Notes under the pieces: model-generated
Told to the model about the DNA's origin: nothing
What the model saw: the letters and a program-made list of their open reading frames with translations, nothing else
The model's database searches: none
Shown: positions 3,598-23,062 of the stretch, piece by piece
Position numbering within the stretch: the stretch's first letter is position 1
Layout of the letters: each line of letters begins with the position of its first letter
Program-made: the position numbers and the translations under genes
From: a virus
Reading direction: 5' to 3' (one strand)
Virus record (IMG/VR): IMGVR_UViG_3300030107_002180
Coordinates: 1-23,062 of that record
DNA length: 23,062 nt

Positions 3598-3784
3598 TAT
3601 TCATCATGTCCCTCAGTTGCATCAACCGTCTAAGAGCAGAAATGCCTCCCTGCAATCTGTACATGTCAGATGGTTTTTCTGTCTGTTCCATTGTGCGTTG
3701 ATAATTCATTATAGATCTTTGTAGCTCCTCTACGAAAGCATCCCATAGTTCTTTGTTATTCGTTAACTCTTTAATTTTAGACAT
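3584..3784 (-). CDS. Hypothetical small protein between portal and virion lysozyme
   Basis: This 66-residue protein starts MSKIKELTNNKELWDAF and is predicted to be almost entirely helical, with many Gln, Met and Arg residues in its second half (QGGISALRRLMQLRDMM). Its ATG overlaps the portal stop by 8 bases (ATGTCTAA), so it is probably translated by coupling to the portal, and its own stop lies inside the next gene. I do not recognise a family. The position directly after the portal suggests a head-assembly or connector accessory role, but that is inference from context only. Confidence 0.75.
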   Translation of the reverse strand: MSKIKELTNNKELWDAFVEELQRSIMNYQRTMEQTEKPSDMYRLQGGISALRRLMQLRDMMNNGKS

Positions 3785-5897
3785 TACCTGTAAATCCTTG
3801 TTCTCCTGGTGCAGGGGCTGTGCCTGTACCTATTTGTGCTCCCCCTCCTCCTGAGGTATCCTGAACATTAGCTCCTGCAGGTGCAGGGGGTGCTCCTCCT
3901 TCAGGGGGCTGTGGAACTTGTTCTTGCTGTGGTGGTTGTTCAGCCTGAAACTTCTTAAATATCTCAGCCTGTATCACAGCATCTTGCAGACTATTTGTAA
4001 CCTTGTTTGGGTCAAGATCCATAGCCTTTGCAATTTCTCTAATAATATAATCCATTTTAGCAAAAGGTGCAAGAGAAGGATTAGATGCAACTTGTAGGAA
4101 TTGCATAAGTCGTTGGCTTCTTACTTCGTTTGCCATTAAGCTTTCTGTACCTTGTGCTCTAACTTCAAGGTCGCCCTTAATGGTTTCATCAAAATCAAAC
4201 TGCATATTAAAGCTAAAGAAGGCTTTACCCATTGGGGCTAATAAATAGTCGTCTACATTCTTTACAACATTTCGTATAGAGCCATTTGCTGCAGACATAA
4301 GCATAGATATACCAGAAGCTGTACGTCCTACACCTTGTACGCCAGTTTGTCCATGAGCAAAGGACGGAAAGCCGGTACTCTCGTCAGCTAACACTCTAGC
4401 CTTATCAAAGAGTTGCATATTCTCTCCTGCCACGTTTGGAAACTTTGTACCAAAGATAGCTTGACCTGGAGCACCTCCTTGTCGTCTAAATATTTTTCCT
4501 GGATACACACTAAGGTCTTGCCCTGGAACAAGGTTTGTTTCGTCTACTTCAATTACAAGATTACCACTAAGAGCAGCGTTATCAATCGCCATACGCATAA
4601 AGCCGTTCATAAGGGTCTGCGTATCATCCATGTTCTCTGCTATACCTACACCAAAGAAACTATATGGGTTATGCTCATAAGGCACAGCGTAGTAAGGTAT
4701 TCTTACAGGCTTGAAGGGGTTGAGCACCAGTCGAAGCACTTTGTCCTGACATATCCATATATTACAATTAATTTGGTCAAGGTCAACCAATTCTGCAGGA
4801 ACATCTATTCCGTTCTGCTCTAGCTTTTCTGCGTCAACGTGCCCCCAAAACTCTAATACCTCAAATCTCTCTGTTGAATTTTCAATAGTAAAGTCCTTCA
4901 TGTCGTCTTCCCAATACTTCTTGTCGTAACTTGTGCCCATTTCAATGCACATGTCAATACATTCATCTCTGAAGTAAGGTCTGTTCTTTAAAGCTCTAAG
5001 TTGAGTACGTGAAAGTTTGTGACGTTCTACCACATATTCAGCTTCGTCCATATTGGACGCATCAGGGTCAGGGTAGAAATTCCAAATAGAAACATGGTTA
5101 GTTGACGGAACAGTTTTGACAAGAGGGTCATACTCTCCGTCTTCTGTCCAATTAGGATACTCTTTGTCTAACGCAAAAGGACCTTTCATAATGCCAGTAC
5201 CAAATAATGACATTTCAAAAGCTGTGTTGCGAAGTTGTTTGTTTGCTCCTGACTCTTCTAATTGGTCAAGAATTTTCTTTTCCATCTTCTTTGCCGCAAT
5301 CATTGCAGGGTGGAAAGTAACCGTTGTGTTTGTCTTGCCGTCTCCTTCTATAATCTTATCAGAGACACCATTAAGTTTATTCTTTGCCGCTCCCAAACGG
5401 TTTTGCAAATCCTGAAGAGTTTCTCCTGGTTGAAGTTCTGCATTAGGTTTAAACAAATAAGGTTCAGCAGGAGTTTCTTCAAACGCCTGTCTAAGCTCGT
5501 CCTGCCCTTTTTCTGCGTTAGGGTCTATATTAATATGTACGGATTCAGCTACTCCGTCAGGCAATGTAGTAGGGTTAACTGTAAGAGGAAAAGAAGAGTT
5601 ACCAAACAAAACGTCAATTATTTGACCATATGCTGCTAATGTCTTGGTTTTTGTTACCTTTACAAATACTCGTGACTTTTCTGTTTCTGTAAACTGAACA
5701 TCAGGACCATATAGTCCTCTGTAGTTTCTATATGCTTTTAACCACCGTGTTTCGTCTTGAAGCCTTACATCTTCGGCTCTTTTAAACCTCTCATTTACGT
5801 AAGCAACTATACCTGATTCTGAGGTAAGTGCAGGGTCATTATCTTCAATGACGGTAACTCCGTCTGTGTCAAATGCTACTTCATTATCTTCTGCCAT
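3777..5897 (-). CDS. Portal (head-tail connector) protein
   Basis: The 706-residue product has the size and layout of P22-type portals: the dodecameric ring at the capsid vertex through which DNA is packaged and ejected. Recognisable stretches are SRVFVKVTKTKTLAAYGQI (75-93), the family-like FYPDPDA (274-280) followed by EAEYVVERHKLSRTQL, and PYYAVPYEHNPYSFFG with GIAENMDDTQTLMN (about 405-445), typical of the portal core. The last 60 residues are a low-complexity Pro/Gln/Gly/Ala tail. The gene starts 2 bases after the terL stop and is immediately upstream of a small ORF, the usual terminase-portal order. The ribosome site is weak, so coupling to terL translation is likely. The family call rests on recognition of these segments and on context. 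Confidence 0.9.
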   Translation of the reverse strand: MAEDNEVAFDTDGVTVIEDNDPALTSESGIVAYVNERFKRAEDVRLQDETRWLKAYRNYRGLYGPDVQFTETEKSRVFVKVTKTKTLAAYGQIIDVLFGNSSFPLTVNPTTLPDGVAESVHINIDPNAEKGQDELRQAFEETPAEPYLFKPNAELQPGETLQDLQNRLGAAKNKLNGVSDKIIEGDGKTNTTVTFHPAMIAAKKMEKKILDQLEESGANKQLRNTAFEMSLFGTGIMKGPFALDKEYPNWTEDGEYDPLVKTVPSTNHVSIWNFYPDPDASNMDEAEYVVERHKLSRTQLRALKNRPYFRDECIDMCIEMGTSYDKKYWEDDMKDFTIENSTERFEVLEFWGHVDAEKLEQNGIDVPAELVDLDQINCNIWICQDKVLRLVLNPFKPVRIPYYAVPYEHNPYSFFGVGIAENMDDTQTLMNGFMRMAIDNAALSGNLVIEVDETNLVPGQDLSVYPGKIFRRQGGAPGQAIFGTKFPNVAGENMQLFDKARVLADESTGFPSFAHGQTGVQGVGRTASGISMLMSAANGSIRNVVKNVDDYLLAPMGKAFFSFNMQFDFDETIKGDLEVRAQGTESLMANEVRSQRLMQFLQVASNPSLAPFAKMDYIIREIAKAMDLDPNKVTNSLQDAVIQAEIFKKFQAEQPPQQEQVPQPPEGGAPPAPAGANVQDTSGGGGAQIGTGTAPAPGEQGFTGNV

Positions 5898-11735: not shown

Positions 11736-11763
11736 AGAACAAAACAAGAACATTTCCGAAAAA

Positions 11764-12145
11764 TACAGGTCAAAAATAGCCTTTTACTATCATAAATAAG
11801 CCTTTTTCCCTGTATTAGCTTATTAAATAGATATTAAAGCCTTGTTTTAACTAGAAAAAACAACTGTTATGCTATCAGTTGCTTAGACTGTCTAATATAT
11901 ACTACCCTTAAAAATCTTTGTTGCGTAATATACTACTCTCGATTGACAGGGACATATTAAACCTGAAAAAAGTCTTAGCTCATTCGACTAGACAAAAAGC
12001 ACCAACAAAAAATAATTAAATTAATTCTGAAGTATTTGAATGGTTCAACTGTTATGAGTTTTACAGGGAGAAAAAATAATATATATAATAAACACAACTT
12101 TTTCAGCATCTGAAACGTCTATTATATACAGGCTAAAAATACAGG
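11764..12145. repeat. Five dispersed TACAGG-N2-AAAA motifs
   Basis: TACAGG, usually preceded by A/T and followed by two or three bases and an A run, occurs at 11764-11769, 12062-12067, 12127-12132 and 12140-12145 on the plus strand. A fifth copy at 11809-11814 is on the minus strand. The last two are 13 bases apart. Candidate iterons or protein-binding sites of an origin or switch. Confidence 0.4.
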
Positions 12146-12181
12146 GTAAAACATGATAGTATTAAATAATTATTTTTATTG

Positions 12182-12211
12182 TTGACATATGAAAAAATAT
12201 CAGCGAATAAT
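12182..12211 (+). promoter_or_regulatory. Rightward early promoter
   Basis: TTGACA at 12182-12187, an 18-base spacer and AATAAT at 12206-12211 (5 of 6 to TATAAT). The start would be near 12218, about 38 bases before the GTG of the first early gene. An AT palindrome (AAATAATTATTT, 12164-12175) lies just upstream. Confidence 0.6.
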
Positions 12212-12255
12212 TGCGAAGATTTTAAAAAACAAAAATTTTTAAGGAGTATAACAAA

Positions 12256-12681
12256 GTGGTAAATTATATAGAAACACACACACTGACAATAACAGACGTT
12301 AAAGAAGATGTAACAAAAGACATAAGAGACGTATTAAGAAAAATCGAATTATCTTATGAAGTATTTTCAACACTTGATACCTACATATGGTTGGCATCAA
12401 TACATAAGGCATTATCTAAAGATTATATTTCAGCAGAAAGGCTTAGGTTTCAAACAGATATATTAAAAAGTATACTTACAGGCTTTACAGATGGAGTATT
12501 AAGAAACGTAGGACTTCAAGAAGATTTATTTAATATTCTTTTCAAGTTAACTACCTATCAAAAAAGAAGACAATACGATTTCACTCCTGACTATGTAGAA
12601 TTTGATGGTGAAAGTTACGACTATGATATTAGTGAAGAGCAACAACAAAGAGTTGATAACTTTAACGAAAAACACATATAA
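12256..12681 (+). CDS. First early gene, hypothetical protein
   Basis: A 141-residue acidic, mostly helical protein that starts at GTG 12256, fixed by a perfect AAGGAG at 12241-12246. The N-terminus (IETHTLTITDVKEDVTKDI) may be strand-helix and the middle (TLDTYIWLASIHKALSKDY) is helical. The C-terminus is acidic and Tyr/Asp-rich (FTPDYVEFDGESYDYD). No domain is recognised and no HTH is evident. As the first product of the rightward promoter it would be made at once after entry, so a host-takeover or switch role is plausible. It is followed directly by the first copy of the 44-bp hairpin repeat. Confidence 0.75.
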   Translation: MVNYIETHTLTITDVKEDVTKDIRDVLRKIELSYEVFSTLDTYIWLASIHKALSKDYISAERLRFQTDILKSILTGFTDGVLRNVGLQEDLFNILFKLTTYQKRRQYDFTPDYVEFDGESYDYDISEEQQQRVDNFNEKHI

Positions 12682-12683
12682 AG

Positions 12684-12727
12684 TCTTTACTAAATAGGGG
12701 AGTTTTAACAACTCCCTTAACTAGTAA
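12684..12727 (+). repeat. 44-bp direct repeat, copy 1, with hairpin
   Basis: Identical over 44 bases to 13809-13852. It contains GGGAGTT (12698-12704), a 5-base loop TTAAC and AACTCCC (12710-12716): a 7-bp perfect stem. Only TT follows the stem, so it is a weak intrinsic terminator at best. It sits 2 bases after the stop of the first early gene and upstream of the ardC-like gene. Confidence 0.9.
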
Positions 12728-12778
12728 CGATTTAACCAAGTACCTAAACAAAAACAAAAAGGAAAGTGTAAAAACAAA

Positions 12779-13804
12779 ATGAAAAATATTGATTTACAAA
12801 AAGAAGTGACAAAAGAAGTTTTAACCTTAATCAAAGAATACAAGGCTAAAGGCATCATGCCAAAATGGAATAAAGGCTTTAATGGTGGGCAAGGCTTCCA
12901 ACCACTAAGAGAAAACAACGAGCCATATAAAGGCTTTAATGCTTTTTACCTATCCATTCTTACAGGTTCAAAAGGTTGGGTTTCTCCTTACTTCCTAACC
13001 TTTAACAAAGCTATGGAGATTTATGGATATAAAAAACAGGAAGTAAACTCAAAAGGCTTCGCTTTAAGAGATGGAGAAAAAGTAGCAAGGGTTGGATATT
13101 GCAAACTTGATAGAATAGCCTTAGCAAAAAAGATTACAGGGAAAGGAGTGCCTGTCATCTATTACCAAAACTTGACTATCAAAGAAGAAATCACAGGCTC
13201 TATTGATGGAGATAAAGAGTTTGATACAAAAACCATTCCTATGATGAAAAATTACAGTGTTTTCAATGCCTGTCAATTTGATGGCTTGAAAGAATTGAAG
13301 CCTAACTTTTTCCCTGAAATCAAAGAAGCTAAAACAACTAATGAAAGATTGCCTGAGATAGATAATTATTTTGACAGTCAAGAAGCCAACTTGAAAACGT
13401 CAACATCAGGAGCTTTCTATAGACCAAGTGAAGATGCTGTCTTTATGCCTGATTGGACAAAATGGAACACTAGCAATGAATATTATAGTGTTCTTGCCCA
13501 TGAGTTTGTACATTCAACAGGAACAAAAGACAGGCTTAATAGAGACATGAGAAATAAATTCGGTTCTCCTAAATATGCTTTTGAGGAGTTAGTCGCTGAA
13601 TTAGGTTCTTTATTCTCAATGATGGCTTTCGGTATCCAACATAAGGCTAGTGACAATAATATTGCCTATCTTGATAATTGGCTTAATCTTTTGAATGACC
13701 ATGATAACGCAATTTTTAAGGCTTGTGCCCTTGCTAGTAAATCTATTGAGTATATGGACAAGATTGCTAACAAAGAGCCTGTACAGGTCGCATATGCTTC
13801 CTGA
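12779..13804 (+). CDS. ardC: ArdC-type antirestriction protein (ssDNA-binding plus zinc metallopeptidase-like domain)
   Basis: 341 residues with the two-domain ArdC layout. Residues 5-150 form the N-terminal ArdC/TraC-type ssDNA-binding domain, with QPLRENNEPYKGFNAFYL (41-58), GWVSPYFLTFNKA (67-79) and FALRDGEKV. Residues 210-330 form a zincin domain with HEFVH (241-245) in SVLAHEFVHSTGTKDRLNR and the third-ligand region YAFEELVAELGSLF (266-279), so the metal site looks intact. Family members on plasmids shield incoming single-stranded DNA from restriction enzymes. In a phage that enters early, a protective role is likely. GGAAAG lies a rather long 14 bases before ATG. The gene is flanked by two identical 44-bp repeats. 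'Polyvalent protein metallopeptidase' is an alternative name for the C-terminal domain. Confidence 0.88.
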   Translation: MKNIDLQKEVTKEVLTLIKEYKAKGIMPKWNKGFNGGQGFQPLRENNEPYKGFNAFYLSILTGSKGWVSPYFLTFNKAMEIYGYKKQEVNSKGFALRDGEKVARVGYCKLDRIALAKKITGKGVPVIYYQNLTIKEEITGSIDGDKEFDTKTIPMMKNYSVFNACQFDGLKELKPNFFPEIKEAKTTNERLPEIDNYFDSQEANLKTSTSGAFYRPSEDAVFMPDWTKWNTSNEYYSVLAHEFVHSTGTKDRLNRDMRNKFGSPKYAFEELVAELGSLFSMMAFGIQHKASDNNIAYLDNWLNLLNDHDNAIFKACALASKSIEYMDKIANKEPVQVAYAS

Positions 13805-13808
13805 GATA

Positions 13809-13852
13809 TCTTTACTAAATAGGGGAGTTTTAACAACTCCCTTAACTAGTAA
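13809..13852 (+). repeat. 44-bp direct repeat, copy 2, with hairpin
   Basis: Perfect copy of 12684-12727, starting 4 bases after the ardC stop. Stem GGGAGTT (13823-13829), loop TTAAC and AACTCCC (13835-13841). The sequences diverge immediately outside the 44 bases apart from scattered matches. Together the copies bracket ardC with the same orientation, 1125 bases apart. Confidence 0.9.
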
Positions 13853-13897
13853 TGATGATAGTAATAAGTTTAATAGAAATAATAGGAGAAATAAGAA

Positions 13898-14605
13898 ATG
13901 CCTTTAGATTATACCAATAAAGAAAATACAATTTATTTAAAAAGCATTAAGCCTTTAGATGATTATAAATATAATCTGATAAAAGAAAGTAAAAATAAGA
14001 AGTTAGGAAAAAACAAAAAAGCCATAGTTAAAAAGGGAAAATTTAAAGGCTATAAAATGTTTACTTTTACTTTAGAAGAGAGGGCAACTTGTCCGAAAAC
14101 CTGTTTTCATTGGTCTAGTTGTTTTGGGAATAATATGCCTTTTGCTCATAGGATAGACCACACTAACGAAGATTTATTAGAACAAAGACTAGAACAGGAT
14201 TTAGAATTATATTGCTCTAAGAATTTTGGTGTTCTATTGCGTACTCATGTCTTAGGTGATTTCTTTAGTCTAAGATATGTTAACTTTTGGGAAAGAATGC
14301 TAAAGAAGTTTCCTAACTTGGCTTTATATGGCTATACGGCTTATTTGCCAACAGATAACAACAAAGATTATGCTTCTATTGGAAAGGCTATTAGAGAGCT
14401 AAATAAGAGCTTTGGCAATAGGTTTGCTATTAGGTTTTCAAACTTACCTAGCCAATCATTTTCGGCTAATAGTTTTGACATTGTAAAAGAAGAAAAGGGA
14501 AAGACTATTGTTTGCCCTGAACAGACAAAGAAAACAGATAATTGTACAACTTGTGCTTTATGTTGGGATTGCCCAACAAAACAAATATTATTTATAACTC
14601 ACTAA
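13898..14605 (+). CDS. GP88-family Cys-rich protein
   Basis: 235 residues resembling the mycobacteriophage 'gene product 88' family, whose function is not established. Features seen: CPKTCFHWSSC (C65, C69, C75), then RTHVLGDFFSLRYVNFW (115-131), LYGYTAY (143-149) and FAIRFSNLPS (176-185). The C-terminus is a Cys cluster, CPEQT followed by CTTCALCWDC (C206, C216, C219, C222, C225). The seven or eight Cys could bind an Fe-S cluster or zinc, and the RTHVLGDF segment may be a barrel strand-loop. AGGAG sits ahead of ATG 13898. It is encoded between ArdC and small membrane/zinc proteins in the early block. Family call from memory of the motif order. Confidence 0.8.
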   Translation: MPLDYTNKENTIYLKSIKPLDDYKYNLIKESKNKKLGKNKKAIVKKGKFKGYKMFTFTLEERATCPKTCFHWSSCFGNNMPFAHRIDHTNEDLLEQRLEQDLELYCSKNFGVLLRTHVLGDFFSLRYVNFWERMLKKFPNLALYGYTAYLPTDNNKDYASIGKAIRELNKSFGNRFAIRFSNLPSQSFSANSFDIVKEEKGKTIVCPEQTKKTDNCTTCALCWDCPTKQILFITH

Positions 14606-14620
14606 ACAGGAGAAAGAAAA

Positions 14621-14758
14621 ATGTTAATAGCTTTAGTAATAATTTTAACGTCAATGATTGTATTATTTATGTTGTTAATGTCCATTTGGGATTTGATTAT
14701 TGGACTAAGAGACGAAAACTATTTTATTAAAATCAAGGAAAGAAAAAACAATGAGTAA
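14621..14758 (+). CDS. 45-residue single-TM protein
   Basis: The N-terminus is one hydrophobic helix (MLIALVIILTSMIVLFMLLM) followed by a short charged tail ending IKERKNNE. ACAGGAGAAAG gives a good ribosome site. It overlaps the next gene by 8 bases (ATGAGTAA). Likely sits in the inner membrane; function unknown, possibly superinfection exclusion or host-membrane control. Confidence 0.7.
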   Translation: MLIALVIILTSMIVLFMLLMSIWDLIIGLRDENYFIKIKERKNNE

Positions 14759-14921
14759 TAAACACATATACAAACACATAGAAGAAGACACAAACCTAGT
14801 TAGCTATGTTTACGATAGAGAGTGTAAAGACTGTGGAGAAAAAGCATACGCAGATACAGGCTTCTTTTTTGAAGATGAATTATATTGTCAAGATTGTTGT
14901 CCTGAGAGCTATGGAGAATAA
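14751..14921 (+). CDS. 56-residue zinc-ribbon-like protein
   Basis: Two Cys pairs, C25-C28 (ECKDCGE) and C46-C49 with C50 (YCQDCC), separated by 17 residues, make a likely zinc ribbon. The rest is acidic. Translation is coupled to the membrane mini-protein by an 8-base overlap. Could bind host RNA polymerase or nucleic acid, as many phage zinc ribbons do, but no specific family is recognised. Confidence 0.7.
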   Translation: MSNKHIYKHIEEDTNLVSYVYDRECKDCGEKAYADTGFFFEDELYCQDCCPESYGE

Positions 14922-15007
14922 AGTTAGGACAAATTGTCGCACTCTATTGACAAGCCTATACAATCTATGTTAAGGAAAAGAAAAAACAGAAAAGAAAGTA
15001 TAACAAA

Positions 15008-15178
15008 ATGAAAAAAAGAACAGTAATGAAAATAGATTATCAAGAAGCCTTAGCCTTAGTTAAAAGAAAAGATTTCCTAACTCCTGAAGAGTATTCCAAA
15101 CAGTTTTGGGAATTGTGGAAACCTGAAGTAAAAGAAAAAGCTAGAAAAGAAATATTAGATTGGAGGGTAGAAGAATGA
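15008..15178 (+). CDS. 56-residue charged helical protein
   Basis: MKKRTVMKIDYQEALALVKR continues with a helical, Lys/Glu/Trp-rich segment (FWELWKPEVKEKARKEILDW). It ends in TGA overlapping the ATG of the next gene (ATGA), so it is probably a coupled partner of the nucleotidase gene. No domain recognised. The leader before it resembles the leader of the first early gene (GTATAACAAA just before the start). Confidence 0.65.
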   Translation: MKKRTVMKIDYQEALALVKRKDFLTPEEYSKQFWELWKPEVKEKARKEILDWRVEE

Positions 15179-15714
15179 GAAAAGTTAATTGGACATATGT
15201 GGACATGGATGGAGTTATAGCTGATTTCTTTGGCTCACTAGCTAGAGAGTTTAACGTCAACCATTGGAAAGATATTCCTACTCAAGAGGAAGTAGTAGAG
15301 AGATTAACAGGTTCAGATTTCTTTGGTAGGATATCAACATTCCCTAGCACCAAACAGTTTTTAGTAACAGTTGATAAATACACTAGTGGAAGATGGTCAA
15401 TTCTTTCAACTCCATTAAAGGGAGACGAGGAAAATTCTAGTAAGCATAAAGATAGATGGTTAAATCATGTCTTTGCAGTAGTCTTTGGACATAGGTTTAA
15501 CAAGGAAAGATTTTACTCTCACAATAAATGGATGTGGGCAACAGATACAGGAGAAATTTCTAGTGGTAAGCCTAACCTATTAATAGACGATAGACCAACC
15601 AATTTAGAAGAGTTCAAAGCTAAAGGTGGCTTAACAATCAGATATCAAGCTAACGAAAGTAAGTTTGAGAAGTTTGAAAACAAATTAAAAGAATTGTTTG
15701 ACAGTAACGATTAA
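15175..15714 (+). CDS. HAD-superfamily 5'(3')-deoxyribonucleotidase-like phosphatase
   Basis: 179 residues with the HAD signature. Motif I is YVDMDGVIADFF (nucleophile D10, D12), motif II SILSTP (75-80), and motif IV LLIDDRPTNLEEF (D138, D139). The length and the ending GGLTIRYQAN match the NT5C type, which removes phosphate from deoxynucleoside monophosphates and may tune nucleotide pools during phage replication. ATG 15175 is taken as start because GGAGG lies at 15162-15166 and the frame overlaps the previous stop by 4 bases. A TTG at 15160 would add five residues that contain the ribosome site. Confidence 0.8.
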   Translation: MRKVNWTYVDMDGVIADFFGSLAREFNVNHWKDIPTQEEVVERLTGSDFFGRISTFPSTKQFLVTVDKYTSGRWSILSTPLKGDEENSSKHKDRWLNHVFAVVFGHRFNKERFYSHNKWMWATDTGEISSGKPNLLIDDRPTNLEEFKAKGGLTIRYQANESKFEKFENKLKELFDSND

Positions 15715-15758
15715 TCGTGGTAACAGAACGAAACCCTAGCAATATAAGGAGAAATTAA

Positions 15759-16004
15759 ATGGCTAGAAAATTAGAAACATTAAGAACTACAAAATACGAA
15801 AACCTAAACCATATTAACATTAAAGGTATGGCTCTTGTTAGGAATGATAAGAGAGAAAGATTTGGGTTAAATGGTACAACGTCCACAAAAGGCGATTTAA
15901 AACAAAGAATTGCTTGTGGTGGTAATAGACCTATTGACCCAACAACAGGCAGATACATAGCAGTATCTGTATTCAACAAATTACAAAGGGAGCAAGGGGT
16001 TTAA
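15759..16004 (+). CDS. Hypothetical protein, basic, 81 residues
   Basis: Starts MARKLETLRTTKYENL and has INIKGMALVRNDKRERFGLNG and GGNRPIDPTTGRYIAVSVFN, probably a small beta-rich domain. TAAGGAGAAA before ATG is a strong ribosome site. No known family. A hairpin lies over its stop codon. Confidence 0.65.
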   Translation: MARKLETLRTTKYENLNHINIKGMALVRNDKRERFGLNGTTSTKGDLKQRIACGGNRPIDPTTGRYIAVSVFNKLQREQGV

Positions 16005-16013
16005 TTCCCCTTG
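15993..16013 (+). terminator. Stem-loop over a stop codon (possible attenuator)
   Basis: CAAGGGG (15993-15999), 7-base loop, CCCCTTG (16007-16013), a perfect 7-bp stem. The stop codon (16002-16004) lies in the loop, and the next gene's GAGG at 16022-16025 follows just after. Few T residues follow, so full termination is unlikely. Confidence 0.45.
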
Positions 16014-16034
16014 TTCAGAATGAGGTCAAATAAA

Positions 16035-16226
16035 ATGAACACAGTTAAAGAAATAATAAAAACTTTATCAGAGTATAATTCTGATACTAGGGTAGACATT
16101 GTACTTTTAGGAGAGGACGAGGAAAACTCTACTGATGATACATACTTGACCATAAAAGGGATTGTTGGTAGTGGAGAAACTGAAGTTAGTTATATAGAAA
16201 TAGGGGTCAAAGAGAATGAAAGATAG
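16035..16226 (+). CDS. Hypothetical acidic protein, 63 residues
   Basis: Starts MNTVKEIIKTLSEYNSDTRV and ends in a beta-like acidic region (YLTIKGIVGSGETEVSYIEI). ATG 16035 is chosen because GAGG lies 9 bases upstream. Start codons at 16011 (TTG) and 16020 (ATG) would begin in the preceding hairpin region. The start resembles a short 'decode the duty' two-layer fold common in phage mini-proteins but no family is recognised. Overlaps the methyltransferase start by 11 bases. Confidence 0.6.
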   Translation: MNTVKEIIKTLSEYNSDTRVDIVLLGEDEENSTDDTYLTIKGIVGSGETEVSYIEIGVKENER

Positions 16227-17583
16227 ATATAATAATTTTACAGATATAAGCCACGATTGGGCAGAGGAAAGTAGCAATCATACTTCCCTATACTCAAAGA
16301 ATAAAAGTGTTGATGGCTTAAACGTGTTAAGTTGTTTCGATGGCTTGTCAGGTGGTCAACTTGCCCTTGAGAAGTCAGGAATAAAAGTTAACCAATACTT
16401 CGCTAGTGAGATAGACAAATATGCTATAGCAGTAGCCAAGTATAACTATCCTAATATGGTACATCTAGGAGACGTTAAGAAGATAGACACGAGCCAACTA
16501 CCTAAGATTGATTTGATGTTGGCAGGTTCTCCTTGTACTGACCTGTCTTTTGCAGGATTAGGAAAAGGGTTAGTTGATGGTGAACAGAGTAGCCTTTTCT
16601 TTGATTGGTGGAAGCTAGTCAAAGAGCTAAAGCCTACCTATATTTTCCTAGAGAATGTTAGAATGAAAAAAGAATATGAAGATATGATTTCTGACATATT
16701 AGGATTTAACCCAATAGCTATTAACAGTTCTTTGGTTTCGGCTCAGAACAGGTACAGACTTTATTGGTTTGGCATTAGAGATGGAGACATATACAAGGCT
16801 ATTCCTATTGCCCAACCAAAAGATAAGGGCATTGTCTTGGCTGACATATTGGAGACAGGATTAGACGATAGTTGGACACTCTCAGATAAGGCACAGGACA
16901 GAGCTAGAAATAACCCTAGAAGTAGAGCTTTCAAGCCTGAACAGGAGAAATCAGGAGCTTTGTTATCTAACCAATACAAACAATCTACTGATGGCTTATA
17001 TGCAGTAGCTAATGGTTGTATTCAGGTAGGAGAAACGGCAGAGATAAAAGGCTTTGATATTATCAAAAGGGTTTACTCTCCTGAGGGCAAAGCACCAACC
17101 TTAACAACTATGCAAGGTGGACACAGAGAGCCTAAGGTAGCGACTACTGACCCTAAAGGTGGACGTATAGTTAATAGACGTAAGGTTGATGGAGTGAGGA
17201 AAGACAACCAACTAGACCTACCTTTGAAGCCTTACCTAGAAGTCAGGGCAGATGATAAGACTAATTGTCTAAGCACAGTACAAAAAGATAATGTTGTAGT
17301 GTCTAAGATTAGAGACAAGTCTAAGGCAGTTCGAGTAGGTGGCAGAGGGAGTTATGACAGACATGAGTGGGATAGTGTAGACGAATTACATTGGAGAAAA
17401 CTCACACCAAGAGAATGTGCTAGACTTCAAACTGTTCCTGATGATTATTGCACTATGGGAAGTTTTGATGGGATTGTTAAACCTATCTCTAAGTCTCAGC
17501 AATACAAAATGCTTGGCAATGGTTGGACAATAGACGTTATAGCTCATATCCTACAGGACATTAGGCTCAAGGGTTGGTGGTAA
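16216..17583 (+). CDS. C5 cytosine DNA methyltransferase
   Basis: 455 residues. Motif I is VLSCFDGLSGGQLALEKSG (37-55, SAM binding). Motif IV is GSPCTDLSFAG (104-114) with catalytic C107, motif VI FLENV (144-148) and motif VIII QNRYRLYWFGI (177-187). After a long variable region (about 195-390, presumed target recognition) come KLTPRECARLQTVPDDY (395-411) and YKMLGNGWTIDV (430-441), the motif IX/X equivalents. Motifs I, IV, VI and VIII are intact, so the enzyme should methylate cytosine in a specific site and protect phage DNA from host restriction. No cognate restriction enzyme lies nearby, so it is an orphan. The Cys/Asp start resembles DNMT3-like phage enzymes. Neighbours ArdC and small early genes fit anti-defence. 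Confidence 0.93.
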   Translation: MKDRYNNFTDISHDWAEESSNHTSLYSKNKSVDGLNVLSCFDGLSGGQLALEKSGIKVNQYFASEIDKYAIAVAKYNYPNMVHLGDVKKIDTSQLPKIDLMLAGSPCTDLSFAGLGKGLVDGEQSSLFFDWWKLVKELKPTYIFLENVRMKKEYEDMISDILGFNPIAINSSLVSAQNRYRLYWFGIRDGDIYKAIPIAQPKDKGIVLADILETGLDDSWTLSDKAQDRARNNPRSRAFKPEQEKSGALLSNQYKQSTDGLYAVANGCIQVGETAEIKGFDIIKRVYSPEGKAPTLTTMQGGHREPKVATTDPKGGRIVNRRKVDGVRKDNQLDLPLKPYLEVRADDKTNCLSTVQKDNVVVSKIRDKSKAVRVGGRGSYDRHEWDSVDELHWRKLTPRECARLQTVPDDYCTMGSFDGIVKPISKSQQYKMLGNGWTIDVIAHILQDIRLKGWW

Positions 17584-17586
17584 GTT

Positions 17587-17679
17587 ATGACGAATAGACA
17601 AGCATGGATTTATTTTTTAACGATTGTAACAGTATGCTATGTATTAGATGAACTAGTAAGATATTTTTATTTTAATTAA
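17587..17679 (+). CDS. 30-residue single-TM protein
   Basis: MTNRQAWIYFLTIVTVCYVL followed by DELVRYFYFN: one hydrophobic helix with a short charged C-terminus. It starts 3 bases after the methyltransferase stop, in the same early transcript. Its own ribosome site is weak (GTAAGTT). Likely an inner-membrane mini-protein of unknown role. Confidence 0.55.
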   Translation: MTNRQAWIYFLTIVTVCYVLDELVRYFYFN

Positions 17680-17691
17680 TGGAGAAAGAAC

Positions 17692-17838
17692 GTGGAAGAA
17701 GAAATAGAAGAAAAAGAGTTTGATATAACTATTAGTCACACTATGTCTGTTATGGCTGAAAGCTATGAAGATGCAGTTGAGTGGGTAAAAAACCATGTAG
17801 CCACACAAGGTAGGCACATAGATTTTGATATAGAATAA
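17692..17838 (+). CDS. 48-residue acidic protein
   Basis: GTG start at 17692 behind GGAGAAAGAAC. Very acidic N-terminus (EEEIEEKEFDITI), then a helix with AESYEDAVEWVKNHV, and an acidic end. No domain recognised; such small acidic proteins often mimic DNA or bind host enzymes. Function unknown. Confidence 0.6.
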   Translation: MEEEIEEKEFDITISHTMSVMAESYEDAVEWVKNHVATQGRHIDFDIE

Positions 17839-17850
17839 AGGAGAAAGAAA

Positions 17851-18237
17851 GTGGAAAAACTAGATAGACAAATACTAAAAAGAGTAAGAGAAACATTAAA
17901 TAATATTCTCAAAGATAACGAAAGACTTGAACAGTTTGACGTAACAGTAGGCAACGCATCATTTAGTGATGATGAAGTAACCTTTAAATTAAACCTAAAG
18001 ATAAAAGGTACTAAGTCTCAATCTCAGAAAGACTTAGAAACATTTGGTGAGATGGACAACTTAGACCTAACCAAGATAGCCAAACTAGATGGCAAGGATT
18101 TTAGTCTGTCAGGGTTTAGACGTAAGGCAAGAAGTAAGCCATATCTAATTCAAGACTTAAAAAATGGTGGTGAATATATTATAACTACTGAAGTAGCTAA
18201 GAAATATTTTGGCAAAGGAGAGGAAAGTAATGCCTAA
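17851..18237 (+). CDS. Hypothetical protein, 128 residues
   Basis: Starts at GTG 17851; AAAGGAG at 17838-17844 supports it. The N-terminal third is a charged helix (LKRVRETLNNILKDNERLEQF), the middle is beta-like (VTVGNASFSDDEVTFKLNLKI), and the end contains FSLSGFRRKARSKPYLIQDL and GGEYIITTEVAKKYFG. It looks like a small helix-plus-strand domain with no recognised family. Its stop overlaps the next gene's start region by 8 bases. Confidence 0.7.
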   Translation: MEKLDRQILKRVRETLNNILKDNERLEQFDVTVGNASFSDDEVTFKLNLKIKGTKSQSQKDLETFGEMDNLDLTKIAKLDGKDFSLSGFRRKARSKPYLIQDLKNGGEYIITTEVAKKYFGKGEESNA

Positions 18238-18418
18238 AACGTATTACAAAAAAGTGTCTCCCTCGAAGCCTAGAAACCCTGAGTTCATACGCAAGAGTTC
18301 TCAGGTGATAGAGGACAAGAGGGAGAAGGAGCAACAACGTAGACACGAGAAGAGAGAGCTTGACCTAAAGAGGTGGAGAGCAGAGTATGAGAAATCAAGA
18401 GGAGATAAAGATGAATAA
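18230..18418 (+). CDS. 62-residue charged coiled-coil protein
   Basis: ATG 18230 has GGAGAGG just upstream; a TTG at 18209 would start inside the previous gene. Starts MPKTYYKKVSPSKPRNP, then a long charged helix (KREKEQQRRHEKRELDLKRW). Strongly basic and acidic runs alternate, typical of a coiled coil. Function unknown. Overlaps the next gene by 8 bases (ATGAATAA). Confidence 0.65.
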   Translation: MPKTYYKKVSPSKPRNPEFIRKSSQVIEDKREKEQQRRHEKRELDLKRWRAEYEKSRGDKDE

Positions 18419-18548
18419 GGAAGATAAAATAAAATTTATAGTTGAGTGTGAAAAGAACGCAGTTCCACCGAATAGTTGGAAGTGGATTCAATTAGCAGAT
18501 GACGAAACTATTAATGAGTTATATGATTATTGGACACAAGAATTATAG
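18411..18548 (+). CDS. 45-residue hypothetical protein
   Basis: MNKEDKIKFIVECEKNAVPP followed by a Trp-rich stretch (SWKWIQLADDETINELYDYW). The acidic C-terminus may be a helix. It overlaps the coiled-coil gene by 8 bases and uses its GGAG at 18401-18404. No family. Confidence 0.6.
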   Translation: MNKEDKIKFIVECEKNAVPPNSWKWIQLADDETINELYDYWTQEL

Positions 18549-18560
18549 AGGAGATAAGAG

Positions 18561-18749
18561 ATGAAACTTGATGATATAAACAATGCTATCTTTAACTTGA
18601 ATGATGTTAAGGAAACGATTAAGGCAAATGGATTGCGTGATACTAAACGTGTCCATGAGGGAACAGATAACCAAGATACTCTTGGGGATTTGGTAGATGA
18701 CTTAGAGATTTTTTTATTAAATACTTACAACAATTTGAATAGGAGTTAA
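18561..18749 (+). CDS. 62-residue acidic helical protein
   Basis: MKLDDINNAIFNLNDVKETI then a short loop and a second helix (LGDLVDDLEIFLLNTYNNL), so a helical hairpin. GAGGAGATAAG before ATG is a good ribosome site. No recognised family. Confidence 0.65.
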   Translation: MKLDDINNAIFNLNDVKETIKANGLRDTKRVHEGTDNQDTLGDLVDDLEIFLLNTYNNLNRS

Positions 18750-18752
18750 GGA

Positions 18753-18992
18753 ATGAAGATAACTATTGAACCAAAAGACAGAGTAGAATTACTCAAGTAT
18801 GTTAACGTATTGAGAGAGTTTAACTGTAACACATCAGAGAAAGTTCCTATCTACTATGAGCACATTTGTGAGATAGAAACTCTTATGTTTAAACTAGCAA
18901 ACCTATTAGAGTTTGAACAACCAAAGGGTTTAGAGGGGGGTTGGTATAGCGACTATTCTCTTAAAGAAGATTTACCAAAGGAGAAGAAGTAA
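18753..18992 (+). CDS. 79-residue hypothetical protein
   Basis: Starts MKITIEPKDRVELLKYVNVL, a strand and helix, with a further helix (YYEHICEIETLMFKLANLLEF) and a charged end. GGAGTTAAGGA precedes ATG. The last base is shared with the next ATG (TAATG), so translation is coupled. Confidence 0.65.
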   Translation: MKITIEPKDRVELLKYVNVLREFNCNTSEKVPIYYEHICEIETLMFKLANLLEFEQPKGLEGGWYSDYSLKEDLPKEKK

Positions 18993-19180
18993 TGAAAGCT
19001 AAACACTTAATGGAGAAACTTATAAAGCTAGACAGTATGGATACAGACATAGAGTTTAGATTACCTGTAAAACTATTTGGAGAAGATGAGGATTTAATAT
19101 TAGACTTTAACTATCTGTTCTATCCTAGTGTCGAGAATGATAAATTTATTATAGCATTTAAGGAGAAGAAGAATGAATAA
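18992..19180 (+). CDS. 62-residue acidic hypothetical protein
   Basis: MKAKHLMEKLIKLDSMDTDI followed by strand-like segments (IEFRLPVKLFG, LILDFNYLFY, KFIIAFKEKK), a possible small alpha-beta fold. AAAGGAGAAGAAG is the ribosome site. It resembles the 63-residue protein at 16035 in shape (helix, then strands) but sequence identity is low. Overlaps the next start by 8 bases (ATGAATAA). Confidence 0.65.
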   Translation: MKAKHLMEKLIKLDSMDTDIEFRLPVKLFGEDEDLILDFNYLFYPSVENDKFIIAFKEKKNE

Positions 19181-19439
19181 ATATTATGCAGTAGTATTTG
19201 AACCCTTTGAAGTTGATGGGTTAGAATATGTCAAAGAGGGAGACAATGGTTGGACAATAGATAGTCCTGTTAAGGTATTCCCTACAAAGGCTCTTGCCCA
19301 AATTGAAGCTGATAAATGGAACACAGGGGAAGTGGTAGAGCTATCTGAATTTGAAGCTATATGTTTCAATAGGTCAAGGGCAGAGAAGATGGTAAAGATG
19401 CCTGACAAAGAAAACGAACCTGATTTTATAATGGAGTAA
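19173..19439 (+). CDS. 88-residue hypothetical protein
   Basis: MNKYYAVVFEPFEVDGLEYV then GWTIDSPVKVFPTKALAQIEADKWNTGEVV and an acidic tail. The strand-helix layout (WTIDSPVKVFPTKALAQIEAD) looks like a small alpha-beta domain. AAGGAGAAGAAG precedes ATG. No known family. Confidence 0.65.
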   Translation: MNKYYAVVFEPFEVDGLEYVKEGDNGWTIDSPVKVFPTKALAQIEADKWNTGEVVELSEFEAICFNRSRAEKMVKMPDKENEPDFIME

Positions 19440-19443
19440 TGAT

Positions 19444-19590
19444 ATGACTAATACATATTATCAACAAATAGTTGTAAAAATAGAAGTTGAAGAGGGTGCT
19501 GATATCCAAGAAGTAATTAGCGAATGTGATTATCAGTTTAACCACAACAAGATAGTAGGAACAGAAATAATTGAGGTGAAAGATGATTAA
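19444..19590 (+). CDS. 48-residue hypothetical protein
   Basis: MTNTYYQQIVVKIEVEEGAD, a helix (IQEVISECDYQF) and a final strand (KIVGTEIIEVKDD): a beta-alpha-beta mini-fold. ATG lies 4 bases after the previous stop (GTAATGATATG). Overlaps the next gene by 8 bases (ATGATTAA). Confidence 0.6.
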   Translation: MTNTYYQQIVVKIEVEEGADIQEVISECDYQFNHNKIVGTEIIEVKDD

Positions 19591-19792
19591 ATTAGCAATA
19601 TTAGATTACGAAAAGGGTAAATTACATACTTATAATGAAGATTGTCTAAATAAACTTGGGTACACTAAAGATTGGAAAGACGAGTTTTATTGTGATAGTG
19701 AGGGGATAGAGGGTTTTATATCTTGTGTGTTAGACTTTAGTTTAAACAACATTCATTATATGGAATATACAGAGGAGAAAAGAAATGAATGA
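19583..19792 (+). CDS. 69-residue acidic hypothetical protein
   Basis: MIKLAILDYEKGKLHTYNED followed by a Tyr/Asp-rich segment (YTKDWKDEFYCDSEGIEGFI) and FSLNNIHYMEYTEEK. GAGGTGAAAG supplies the ribosome site. The beta-like start and acidic end are typical of early phage mini-proteins. Its end overlaps the following mini-gene by 8 bases (ATGAATGA). Confidence 0.65.
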   Translation: MIKLAILDYEKGKLHTYNEDCLNKLGYTKDWKDEFYCDSEGIEGFISCVLDFSLNNIHYMEYTEEKRNE

Positions 19793-19883
19793 GGGACAGA
19801 CACTACTAACAAGCATAGCCTTGATTATAGCTACGGCTCTTATACTCAATGCGTGTTCAGGTTTCTTTATGAGGATAAATTAA
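19785..19883 (+). CDS. 32-residue membrane mini-protein with lipobox-like LNAC
   Basis: MNEGQTLLTSIALIIATALILNACSGFFMRIN: a hydrophobic helix ending at LNAC-SG, which resembles a lipoprotein signal (L at -3, A at -1, Cys), although Asn at -2 is atypical. If processed, only a few residues would remain. Alternatively a plain TM mini-protein. AGAGGAGAAAAG is the ribosome site. Confidence 0.5.
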   Translation: MNEGQTLLTSIALIIATALILNACSGFFMRIN

Positions 19884-20047
19884 TGAAAAGTGGATACATA
19901 ATAATAAAGGTGGAGCATGAAGCTGATAACCTGGAAATTATATGCAAGGAATGTGAGTGGGATTTAGACCATGAGCTACTTATAGATGCTCAGATAACAG
20001 GCTATGTTGAACATAACCCTGAGTTTGATTATGAAGTTTTACATTAA
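19883..20047 (+). CDS. 54-residue hypothetical protein
   Basis: ATG 19883 shares its base with the previous stop (TAATG); GAGGATAAA is its ribosome site. A longer in-frame start at 19853 lies inside the membrane mini-protein. The sequence KSGYIIIKVEHEADNLEIIC followed by KECEWDLDHELLIDAQITGYV alternates strands and a helix; a Cys pair (C31, C34 region, ICKEC) is present. No family. Confidence 0.6.
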   Translation: MKSGYIIIKVEHEADNLEIICKECEWDLDHELLIDAQITGYVEHNPEFDYEVLH

Positions 20048-20059
20048 AGGAGAGGATAG

Positions 20060-20209
20060 ATGGACGAAGATGAGTTTACAAATTTGATTGAATCTGATAC
20101 AATTCTTGACGCAGAGTTTGATAACGCAAAAGAAGAAGACTTTGAGTTAATACAAAAGATAAGGGAAGTACATGATATTAGAAACGGCATTGATGTGCAT
20201 GGCATTTAA
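20060..20209 (+). CDS. 49-residue acidic protein
   Basis: MDEDEFTNLIESDTILDAEF then NAKEEDFELIQKIREVHDI: a very acidic, helical protein behind a strong AAAGGAGAGG. Overlaps the next gene by 38 bases. Could bind a host protein or mimic DNA; not identified. Confidence 0.6.
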   Translation: MDEDEFTNLIESDTILDAEFDNAKEEDFELIQKIREVHDIRNGIDVHGI

Positions 20210-20597
20210 TATTTACCACGAAGCTAACAATCAATCTATGTTAGGACAGATTGCAGTAGGGCAAGTGGTGATGAACAGGGTAGCAAGTCCATCTTTTCCT
20301 AACACAGTATGTGAGGTGGTTAAACAAGGACAGAGATACAAGAATGGAAAGATGGTGCTACACAAATGTCAGTTCTCTTGGTACTGTGATGGTAAGAGAG
20401 ACGAGATAAAAAAAGACACTAAGGCTTGGAGAAAGGCTTTAGACTATGCGAGTATTGTTGTAAGTGGTAGGATAGTAATGGACGTAACTCAAGGGAGCTT
20501 ATGGTATCATGCGTATTATGTGAAACCCTCTTGGGCAAGACAAAAAGAAAGAGTAACGAGGATAGATAGTCACATATTTTATAGGAGAAAGAAATGA
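20172..20597 (+). CDS. SleB-like cell wall hydrolase
   Basis: A 141-residue Hydrolase_2 domain protein. Signature residues: NIYHEANNQSMLGQIAVGQV (catalytic Glu17), VMNRVASPSFPNTVCEVV (33-50), CQFSWYCDG (66-74), SLWYHAYYVKPSWA (109-122) and DSHIFY. SleB-type enzymes act on the glycan strand of peptidoglycan as lytic transglycosylase-like hydrolases. No signal peptide is visible. It lies in the early strand, apart from the M15 endolysin on the late strand, so an entry or late-lysis helper is possible. AGGGAAG just before ATG supports the start, and 4 bases overlap the next gene (ATGA). Confidence 0.9.
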   Translation: MILETALMCMAFNIYHEANNQSMLGQIAVGQVVMNRVASPSFPNTVCEVVKQGQRYKNGKMVLHKCQFSWYCDGKRDEIKKDTKAWRKALDYASIVVSGRIVMDVTQGSLWYHAYYVKPSWARQKERVTRIDSHIFYRRKK

Positions 20598-20827
20598 CAG
20601 ATATGTTTTTAGGAATGTTTGCTTTAGCTTTTGTAGAGCACAACAAAGAGTTTATTAACCAAGCGAGAGAGAACAAAAAGAATGGGTATGTTTGGGAGCT
20701 ATCGCCTGGATTTATAAGTAAAGATGCCCTTGCCATAGCCTTTGAGGGTAATGGTAAAAGGCAGGTAATATGGAGACAAAAGAAAACAGTAAGGATACCC
20801 TTACCCAAGCCAAAGGAGATGAAGTAA
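20594..20827 (+). CDS. 77-residue hypothetical protein
   Basis: MTDMFLGMFALAFVEHNKEF begins with a short hydrophobic segment, then NKKNGYVWELSPGFISKD and a basic end (QKKTVRIPLPKPKEMK). Overlaps the SleB-like gene by 4 bases and the next gene by one base, so it may work with cell wall hydrolysis. No family. Confidence 0.65.
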   Translation: MTDMFLGMFALAFVEHNKEFINQARENKKNGYVWELSPGFISKDALAIAFEGNGKRQVIWRQKKTVRIPLPKPKEMK

Positions 20828-20904
20828 TGTTTGGATATACTGCATTTCTTATAGTGTACTGTTGTTTTGTGGCTTATATGTTGAGTGTATCTGATGAAGA
20901 TTAG
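20827..20904 (+). CDS. 25-residue TM mini-protein
   Basis: MFGYTAFLIVYCCFVAYMLSVSDED: one hydrophobic helix and an acidic end. It starts on TAATG shared with the previous stop, with AAGGAG 12 bases upstream. Likely a membrane mini-protein; too short for family assignment. Confidence 0.45.
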   Translation: MFGYTAFLIVYCCFVAYMLSVSDED

Positions 20905-21118
20905 CAGAACACAAGTAATAAGATTTATACTGCCCTTTAGTAAGATATTAAACTTTTTACTAGGGGGTAGTATACACCAATCTTTTTCGGCTCGTAATCA
21001 TGCGTGGAAAGAGAGGGGTAAGCCTAACTTTACATGGATAATTGATAAAATATTAGGAGAGAAACATTGTTTGATATCATACATACTATGGAGAAGAAAG
21101 ACACAGGCTCTCAGGTAA
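20894..21118 (+). CDS. 74-residue conserved hypothetical protein
   Basis: ATG 20894 is preferred; a GTG at 20885 would add 3 residues. Contains ILPFSKILNFLLGGSIHQSFSARNHAWKERGK (split: GGSIHQSFSARN, HAWKERGKPNFTWIIDKILG). The RNxxWKxxGKxNxxxxIDxIxGxxHC pattern recurs in marine phages, from memory, without function. Basic C-terminus. Overlaps the integrase start by 52 bases. Its ribosome site is weak. Confidence 0.65.
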   Translation: MKISRTQVIRFILPFSKILNFLLGGSIHQSFSARNHAWKERGKPNFTWIIDKILGEKHCLISYILWRRKTQALR

Positions 21119-22029
21119 TGCCTAAGAGTGTAAATGAATTGGTAGACTATTACCTTAAAAGCCCACAGTTTTTGGCTTTAAGAAGTAGGACACAGAAAGA
21201 TTACGAATACTGTATAGGCAGGGCAGTTGACACTACCATTACTCCTGCTAGGAAACTTGGAGCAACCAAACTAGATAAGCTAAGTGTATCGGATTGTAAG
21301 ATTGCGTATCAACAATGGGTTAAGAGAGGAGTAAGAACGGCTAACATCACAACTACTGTTATGTCAGTTCTCTTTAACATGGCAGAAGAGCTAGAGTTGA
21401 TTGTTCGTAACCCAATGCGAAGTGTAACAAAGATGAAAGAGAAACCAAGACGAGTTATGTGGACAGTAGACCAAGTGAGACTTTTTACTGATACTGCTTT
21501 TTCAAAGTATGAGTGGAGAAGTATAGGATTGATTGTGTACATGGCATATTCTTTTGCTCAGAGGATTGGGGATATACGTTCCCTTAAATGGGAGAACATA
21601 AATTTTGAGGAACGTAGGCTAGACCTTGAGCAATCTAAAAAGAGAGCAGAAGTACATATACCTATACTTATACATATGTACAGAATGTTGGAGAAACAGT
21701 ATAAAGACTTTGGCTTTCAAGAGTATGTAGCACCACACCCCTATCCTAGAAGTGGAGCTTACAGGATATACACAGATACAGACATTAGTAGAATGGTAAA
21801 CAAGATAAAAGAAGAAGCAGGATTACCTAAAGAGTTAACTGCTATGGATATGAGAAGAACGGCTATAACTGAAATGGTTGAAGCAGGAGTAGACACTACT
21901 CAGATTATGGCAGTATCAGGACACAATAGTCCTAACTCAATGCGACCTTATATTCGCCACACTTACAAGTCGGCGGCAAATGCTTTATCAAGGAGAGAGG
22001 AGAGTAAAAATGGTACACAAACCATCTAA
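21067..22029 (+). CDS. int: Tyrosine recombinase (phage integrase)
   Basis: 320 residues. An N-terminal SAM-like core-binding domain (about 20-120: VNELVDYYLKSPQFLALRSR) precedes the catalytic domain. Catalytic residues visible are R166 (YSFAQRIGDIRSL), the beta-hairpin Lys (K191/K192), R263 (AMDMRRTAITEM), H286 (AVSGHNSPNSM) and Tyr295 (RPYIRHT). In the usual HxxR box the His position is Met260. The enzyme would catalyse site-specific recombination between phage attP and a host att site; no partner excisionase was recognised. The start is TTG 21067, chosen because GGAG at 21056-21059 sits 7 bases upstream; the later ATGs lack ribosome sites. Confidence 0.92.
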   Translation: MFDIIHTMEKKDTGSQVMPKSVNELVDYYLKSPQFLALRSRTQKDYEYCIGRAVDTTITPARKLGATKLDKLSVSDCKIAYQQWVKRGVRTANITTTVMSVLFNMAEELELIVRNPMRSVTKMKEKPRRVMWTVDQVRLFTDTAFSKYEWRSIGLIVYMAYSFAQRIGDIRSLKWENINFEERRLDLEQSKKRAEVHIPILIHMYRMLEKQYKDFGFQEYVAPHPYPRSGAYRIYTDTDISRMVNKIKEEAGLPKELTAMDMRRTAITEMVEAGVDTTQIMAVSGHNSPNSMRPYIRHTYKSAANALSRREESKNGTQTI

Positions 22030-22804
22030 GGAGTTCTTAGAGGGACTAGGACTCAAAGAAGGAGAGACAATTACTATAGATTGTCCTGTCTGTAATGGAG
22101 TTAAGAAGTTCTCAGCTTCTAATAAAGAGGGTCTAATACTATATAACTGTTACCGAAATAGTTGTGACGTTAAAGGAGCATCAATGACTCCCCTGCTTGT
22201 AGAAACTATAAAGAACAAGATACAGGGGTTAGAAGAGGTTGAAAAAGACCGAAAATTTGAGATGCCTGAGTATATAACAGATGGTAACAATTCATATATC
22301 CAAAGGTTCAGGAGAAGATGGGATTTGAGGGTAGAGTTATTATATGATTGTAAAAGTAATAGAGCAGTATTTCCTATCTATCAAAACGGAAGGATTGTAG
22401 ATGCGATAGGGAGAGCCTTGTATAATGCCCAACCCAAATGGTATAAGTATGGTGGCAAGGCTAAGTATTACTCCTACTGCATTAATCCTAATGAAAGCAT
22501 AGCAGTAGTCGTGGAAGATGTTATATCAGCTACTGTAGTGGGAGAAACACTAGCAGGAATAACAGGAGTGGCATTGTTAGGAACTAACTTATTGAGGGAG
22601 CACAAGGAGTATTTGGACACTTTTGATACAGTTGTTGTGGCTCTTGACCCTGATGCACTAGGTAAGACTATTGAATATACTAAAGAGTTAAAGAGTTACT
22701 GTGAACCCTCTGAGGTGATTGCATTACATATTGAGGACGACTTAAAGTATAGACGAGAAAATGATTTTAAGAAGCTGAGGGAAATAACAGATGGAACAAT
22801 TTGA
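22010..22804 (+). CDS. T7-type DNA primase: zinc finger plus TOPRIM domain
   Basis: 264 residues from ATG 22010, with GGAGAGAGGAGAG directly upstream; an ATG at 21980 lies within the integrase end and ahead of that site. A Cys4 zinc finger (C25, C28, C47, C52; DCPVCNG and YNCYRNSC) is followed by a linker and the TOPRIM fold. TOPRIM residues are E169 in VVVEDVISA and D213/D215 in VVALDPDALGKT. It makes RNA primers for the lagging strand. No helicase domain is fused, so a separate helicase probably follows to the right. The gene overlaps the integrase by 20 bases. Confidence 0.9.
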   Translation: MVHKPSKEFLEGLGLKEGETITIDCPVCNGVKKFSASNKEGLILYNCYRNSCDVKGASMTPLLVETIKNKIQGLEEVEKDRKFEMPEYITDGNNSYIQRFRRRWDLRVELLYDCKSNRAVFPIYQNGRIVDAIGRALYNAQPKWYKYGGKAKYYSYCINPNESIAVVVEDVISATVVGETLAGITGVALLGTNLLREHKEYLDTFDTVVVALDPDALGKTIEYTKELKSYCEPSEVIALHIEDDLKYRRENDFKKLREITDGTI

Positions 22805-23062
22805 ATTATTTGAACTTGAAGACTACCCTTCTTCTGAAAGCGAGGACAAGAGAGTTTGTAGCAAGTGTGATAAGTCTCTTCCTCTAAGTAGCTTTTCCCC
22901 TAACTCAGGGGGTAACTTTCTTAGACCTGAATGTAAAGAATGTAATCGTGCTTTTCGCAAGGTTAGAGAAAGGTTGAAGATGGAACATGGGATGCCTGAA
23001 GAAGGCTATCAATGTCCTGTTTGTGAGAAAACTGAAGATGACGTTGCAGGGAAAGGGGGTAG
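22791..23062 (+). CDS. Endonuclease VII-like HNH protein (partial at right edge)
   Basis: Runs from ATG 22791 to the window edge (90 codons visible), overlapping the primase end by 14 bases. An N-terminal double zinc finger (C23-C26, C48-C51; RVCSKCDKSL, LRPECKECNRAF) is followed by a basic helix and YQCPVCEKTEDDVAGKGG, the start of the recombination endonuclease VII/HNH core. Such proteins resolve branched DNA before packaging or act as nicking enzymes. The catalytic His motif lies beyond the edge, so activity cannot be judged. Confidence 0.75.
   Translation, partial: MEQFELFELEDYPSSESEDKRVCSKCDKSLPLSSFSPNSGGNFLRPECKECNRAFRKVRERLKMEHGMPEEGYQCPVCEKTEDDVAGKGG

Follow-up and report, generated by a model that had tools for sequence, protein, structure and literature searches.

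The ardC locus and its direct repeat

The window analysed here is a stretch of 23,062 bases at the start of a virus record of 45,123 bases, a metagenome-derived contig. The terminase shares 68-75% identity with its counterparts in Puniceispirillum phage HMO-2011 and in the Roseobacter phages CRP-603, CRP-2 and CRP-207, and we therefore regard the window phage as HMO-2011-type. Phages of this type have been described as dominant and widespread among marine viruses (PMC9038755). The early region of the window carries, on the plus strand, a first early gene of 141 amino acids (12256-12681) with no homologue in the phage collection, an ardC-type anti-restriction gene of 341 amino acids (12779-13804) and a GP88-family gene of 235 amino acids (13898-14605). 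A TTGACA-18-AATAAT sequence upstream of the 141-aa gene (12182-12211, plus strand) is a candidate early promoter by consensus match only, promoter-like matches being about as numerous in this region as in shuffled sequence. A C5 cytosine methylase (16216-17583) and a tyrosine recombinase (21067-22029) are encoded further downstream.

The first-pass annotation had named the central gene as ArdC-type, and this identification is upheld by Pfam (ArdcN, 6e-12, and the zincin-like MPTase-PolyVal domain, 3e-37) and by PHROGs, where it matches anti-restriction protein. Its best matches in phage records are only ~32% identical. The gene was not found in any of the HMO-2011-type relatives examined, drawn from collections in which near relatives of the window may be missing, and thus no related genome among them places ardC in unrelated flanks.

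Two copies of a 44-nt sequence, identical throughout, occupy 12684-12727 and 13809-13852. The perfect direct repeat reported earlier is therefore real, and the match extends to 47 of 48 positions with one C/T mismatch, ending at 12731 and 13856; the chance of a 44-nt exact repeat arising within 23 kb is negligible. Both copies start just behind stop codons, again as annotated, copy 1 beginning 2 bases past the stop of the 141-aa ORF (which ends at 12681) and copy 2 beginning 4 bases past that of ardC (which ends at 13804). The further claim that the repeats bracket ardC exactly holds on the 3′ side, where copy 2 is directly adjacent to the gene and the GP88-family gene lies directly downstream, but not on the 5′ side, where copy 1 is separated from the ardC start codon by 51 nt. 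With two copies in the whole 45-kb record, the 44-mer is not a common terminator placed after nearly every gene. No other stop-adjacent hairpin was seen among exact repeats of at least 28 nt in ~150 related loci, where two other repeats were of a different kind.

Each copy had been described as a 7-bp stem with a TTAAC loop. This hairpin is present, but the description understates the fold, as the 7-bp stem forms only the central part of a predicted rod of ~60 nt with about 20 base pairs (20-21, arranged as 10 + 6 + 4-5), interrupted by a 1x1 mismatch and a 2x2 internal loop. From the outside inwards the rod consists of an outer stem, the 1x1 mismatch, the pairing UUACUA/UAGUAA, the 2x2 loop, the arms UAGGGGAGUU/AACUCCCUUA and the loop UUAAC, with a predicted folding energy of -21 to -22 kcal/mol. 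The full module spans 12678-12737 in copy 1, where the outer stem (AAGUC/GAUUU) takes in the last A of the upstream stop codon, and 13803-13862 in copy 2, whose own flanks supply a different outer stem (UAUC/GAUG), both on the plus strand. The folding z-score is -4.9 for the 44-mer and -5.9 for copy 1 with its flanks (91-nt context), and no shuffled sequence folds equally well.

The hairpin in related phages

The element recurs in two related loci, L272 and L204. In L272, which was recovered with a search pattern that left out the inner arms, there is one copy (AGTCTTTACTAAGTAGGGGCTAATAATTTAGCCCTTAACTAGTAACGATTTAAACAAGTA), situated 2 nt past the stop of the first early gene; a GP88-like gene follows it, and ardC is absent. 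L204 (terminase ~87% identical) also has one copy (TTACTAAGTAGGGGCTATTTGTTTAGCCCTTAACTAGTG), behind a 20-codon ORF whose stop codon falls inside the outer stem. Placement behind a stop codon is thus common to all four copies. Across the window, L272 and L204 the segments UUACUAAnUAGGGG...CCCUUAACUAGU are invariant, whereas the inner and outer arms differ in sequence yet remain complementary.

The comparison with L272 bears on the history of the locus. The DNA of the two phages is ~80% identical as far as window base 11752, and similarity resumes at 15180 (72-85%); within the 3.4-kb accessory region that differs in gene content, the element is the sole shared DNA, as a stretch of 78 nt with 80.8% identity (E 6e-14; window 12678-12752). 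This stretch includes both flanks of copy 1, among them a leader at 12738-12752 on the plus strand. The earlier annotation had described immediate divergence outside the repeat, and this is correct for copy 1 against copy 2 but not for copy 1 against L272. The flanks of copy 2, in contrast, match neither copy 1 nor L272, and only the core is common to the two window copies. Since its L272-like flanks lie on both sides, copy 1 appears to sit in the older context.

A relative with a single copy and no ardC, which the first reading of the locus had proposed to look for, therefore exists in the form of L272, with the order gene, element, GP88-like gene. However, the genes either side of the element are non-homologous between the window and L272 by BLAST, and the two GP88-like proteins are at most remote relatives (a weak match to PHROG 1392 in common), so L272 falls short of a clean empty site. 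L272 and L204 have another sequence in the fast-evolving inner stem and loop, which copies 1 and 2 share without a difference. The pair thus fits the earlier suggestion of a recent duplication or gene conversion, but the element itself is older and conserved. On this comparison, we regard the element as a member of a small conserved family of putative RNAs, and not merely the product of a recent duplication.

Two features of these sequences bear on whether the conserved molecule is RNA. The four copies, from three records, were aligned in four rows, with one N inserted manually into the loop of two of them to guide the alignment. Both partners have changed in 7 of 21 pairs, compared with 4.0 in shuffles (5 of 500 shuffles reach 7). 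Paired cells make up 96% of this alignment against 83% in shuffles, and its covariation score of 0.405 (0.175 in shuffles, none of 500 reaching the observed value) is far above that of slid controls. Given the small number and relatedness of the sequences and the manual guidance of the alignment, we take the covariation as good, not overwhelming, evidence. Moreover, every non-Watson-Crick pair is a G-U on the coding strand, where the other strand would have an A-C mismatch, and for each of the four copies the predicted fold of the coding strand is 1.4 to 6.7 kcal/mol more stable than that of the complement. Judging from the covarying stems and the coding-strand G-U wobbles, the element most likely acts in the early mRNA.

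Wider searches returned few relatives. The exact 41-mer had no match in viral contigs, in collections that may leave out near relatives of the window, and blastn of the element against phage isolates gave chance-level matches only. The bare pattern GGGAGTT-N5-AACTCCC occurred in at least 119 stretches, which we took as chance; a strict structural pattern gave zero matches, and looser patterns recovered L272 and L204 as the two real homologues together with unrelated matches, which formed three sequence groups and were dropped on the basis of fold and sequence. Patterns scanned against 84,980 species genomes of bacteria and archaea matched none, and Rfam at the gathering score yielded 0 matches in the window. 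A covariance model run over ~1.5 Mb of related loci and 24 records, six of them isolates, returned the four known copies with their complements and, beyond these, only weak hits.

Other hairpins and sequence bias in the early regions

Hairpins of other sequence occur in the early regions of this phage group. At the corresponding junction, after an early gene and upstream of the GP88-like gene, the sister phages L003 (~3070-3103), L213 (~2730-2700) and L199 have a GC-rich hairpin of another sequence, GCGGAGTCT...AGACTCCGC. The junction thus seems to carry a hairpin by recurrent design, in a sequence that varies between lineages. The same three phages have a second hairpin, followed by a U-tract, after the GP88-like gene. 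Within the early operon of the window, a 10-bp hairpin at 15990-16016 (GAGCAAGGGG/CCCCTTGTTC) spans the stop codon of an 81-aa gene and is another stop-adjacent structure. Upstream of the integrase gene, a 20-bp stem with a 9-nt loop (20926-20974) has the words TTTAGTAA and TTTACTAG in common with the element; we rejected it as a relative, given that the covariance model does not find it and that it lies inside a possible 77-aa reading frame.

The early regions also show a bias in short words, which for GANTC is lineage-specific. GANTC is the CcrM methylation site of alphaproteobacteria. It occurs 4 times in the early region of the window (11753-23062) against 28.6 expected, with none from ~11.5 to 17 kb, and is nearly absent from L204 (positions 1-3800, 0 against 6.8 expected) and L272 (positions 1-3218, 1 against 6.4). 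The early regions of the sister phages are enriched in it (L213, 35 against 10.4 expected; L199, 35 against 8.8; L003, 46 against 25.2), and L213 and L199 are depleted of it in their late regions. This pattern may reflect hosts differing in restriction or methylation, or regulation through GANTC. Both GGNCC (ratio 0.0) and GCNGC (0.11) are strongly under-represented in 11753-23062 of the window, the region that encodes the C5 cytosine methylase.

Probable function of the element and its possible part in gene exchange

Taking structure and comparison together, we consider it somewhat probable that the repeat is the core of a ~60-nt intercistronic RNA hairpin serving as an mRNA processing or 3′-end-stabilising site, that its copies around ardC have been homogenised by recombination, and that the element belongs to one sublineage of HMO-2011-type marine phages. 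In this model, the hairpin would be carried on early mRNA directly behind a gene's stop codon. The predicted double-stranded rod of about two helical turns, lying in an intercistronic region as an RNase III site would, is of the kind that could be cut by a double-strand-specific RNase such as RNase III or could block 3′ exonucleases, and either cutting or stabilisation would give each early gene its own mRNA end. As a short, conserved sequence at gene boundaries, the element may also serve as a homology patch where accessory genes are exchanged, with the cores on either side of ardC being duplicated or homogenised by recombination when that gene reached the junction. We infer both the RNA cleavage (by RNase III) or stabilisation and the recombination route from the sequences. 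Of the two explanations put forward in the first-pass annotation, a shared post-transcriptional element fits a conserved structured RNA present in at least three phages, and recombination of ardC as a cassette survives in modified form.

The strongest competitor is that the element is mainly a seam for homologous recombination and that ardC entered as a gene-plus-hairpin unit, in the manner of the shuffling ascribed to T4-type promoter-early stem-loops (PeSLs). In favour of this, the element stands as an island of common DNA between genes that are not homologous, its copies flank ardC, relatives are without ardC and L272 has a single copy, and the two window cores agree fully over a segment that has another sequence in L272 and L204. 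However, the covarying arms preserve a structure that homologous recombination does not need. Furthermore, one ardC-bearing genome is known and none of the ~150 related phage loci has another repeated pair, while the L272-like flanks on both sides of copy 1 indicate that a simple one-step insertion is not the sole path. As the main role of the element, we consider such a seam possible but unlikely.

The PeSLs themselves invite closer comparison. In T4-type phages they have been given a gene-shuffling role (Arbiol 2010 and Comeau 2014, as cited in PMC4503421). They too are short stem-loops between early accessory genes, common to related phages; the window element likewise is a conserved stem-loop between early genes of related phages. 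PeSLs pair a stem-loop with an early promoter and occur densely in T4-like myoviruses, whereas the element has one or two copies per record and lies in a genome with an HMO-2011/CRP-like terminase, not that of a T4-type myovirus. A search for an early promoter in or after the element with the sigma-70 consensus, which a phage-specific promoter would escape, turned up nothing at copy 1 and, near copy 2, no more than one weak match of 9/12 (13830-13859). As no promoter part was found and the phage is of a different type, we have not filed the element as a PeSL. The early RNase III sites of T7 (R1.1 type) are also ~60-nt hairpins with an internal loop between early genes. R1.1, at 60 nt, has an asymmetric 4/5 internal loop (PMC6121014), in contrast to the symmetric 2x2 and 1x1 loops of the element; a function like that of R1.1 is possible.

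Alternatively, the hairpin could be a partial terminator or attenuator that pauses RNA polymerase, perhaps aided by a factor from host or phage, and lowers expression of the early genes downstream. The strong hairpin directly behind stops, the promoter-like site upstream of the first gene and the U-tract hairpins of the sister phages are consistent with this. On the coding strand, however, no U-tract directly follows the stem (the strand continues TTAACTAGTAA), and a terminator scan lists the element on the opposite strand only, with a weak tail; the element is thus not an intrinsic terminator of the usual kind. Further genes also come after it, and we find attenuation improbable.

Several readings at the level of DNA fare less well. 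The element could be a palindrome acting as an operator for a dimeric regulator, or as a site for the phage tyrosine recombinase, which the window does encode, and its invariant outer half-sites (TTACTAA/TTACTAG) are near-palindromic. The variable yet complementary arms and the coding-strand G-U pairs point instead to single-stranded RNA, and the element always stands behind stops, not at promoters, making this role very unlikely. Integron attC sites resemble the element in that a hairpin lies just past a gene's stop and repeated hairpins flank a gene. The end boxes of attC are RYYYAAC and GTTRRRY. Both are absent here, the element ending in TCTTTACTAA and TAACTAGTAA, and the recombinase at 21067-22029, the one protein scanned, scores 24.6 bits against the TIGR02249 cut-off of 265; we have rejected this identity. 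A REP/RAYT or IS200/IS605 origin was likewise set aside, the possibly incomplete 45-kb record having no match to the Y1 transposase PF01797 in a scan in which control genomes were positive. Finally, a wrong join at the 48-nt repeat could have created the second copy or the ardC segment in a metagenome contig whose arrangement was found in no second genome, but 48 nt is shorter than usual reads, the GC content and lack of GANTC of ardC are those of its neighbours and gene order and strand are coherent, so that an assembly artefact is highly unlikely.

Returning to the hairpin as an RNA processing or stabilising site, a more ambitious and quite speculative extension, to which we give little chance, is that it forms a dedicated gene-capture seam of HMO-2011-type phages, with accessory early genes, ardC among them, travelling as gene-plus-hairpin cassettes joined at the core and the RNA fold keeping each gained gene on its own processed mRNA. 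If true, cassette exchange and expression would be combined in one 60-nt element. Little is known of how HMO-2011-type phages gain and express accessory genes. Our analysis points to the hairpin as a small control element acting at the RNA level, one that is shared or copied when phages exchange accessory genes, and it would place an anti-restriction gene at such a point of gene swapping. Conserved through the turnover of neighbouring genes, such an RNA hairpin may offer a handle on both the gain and the expression of accessory genes in these phages.
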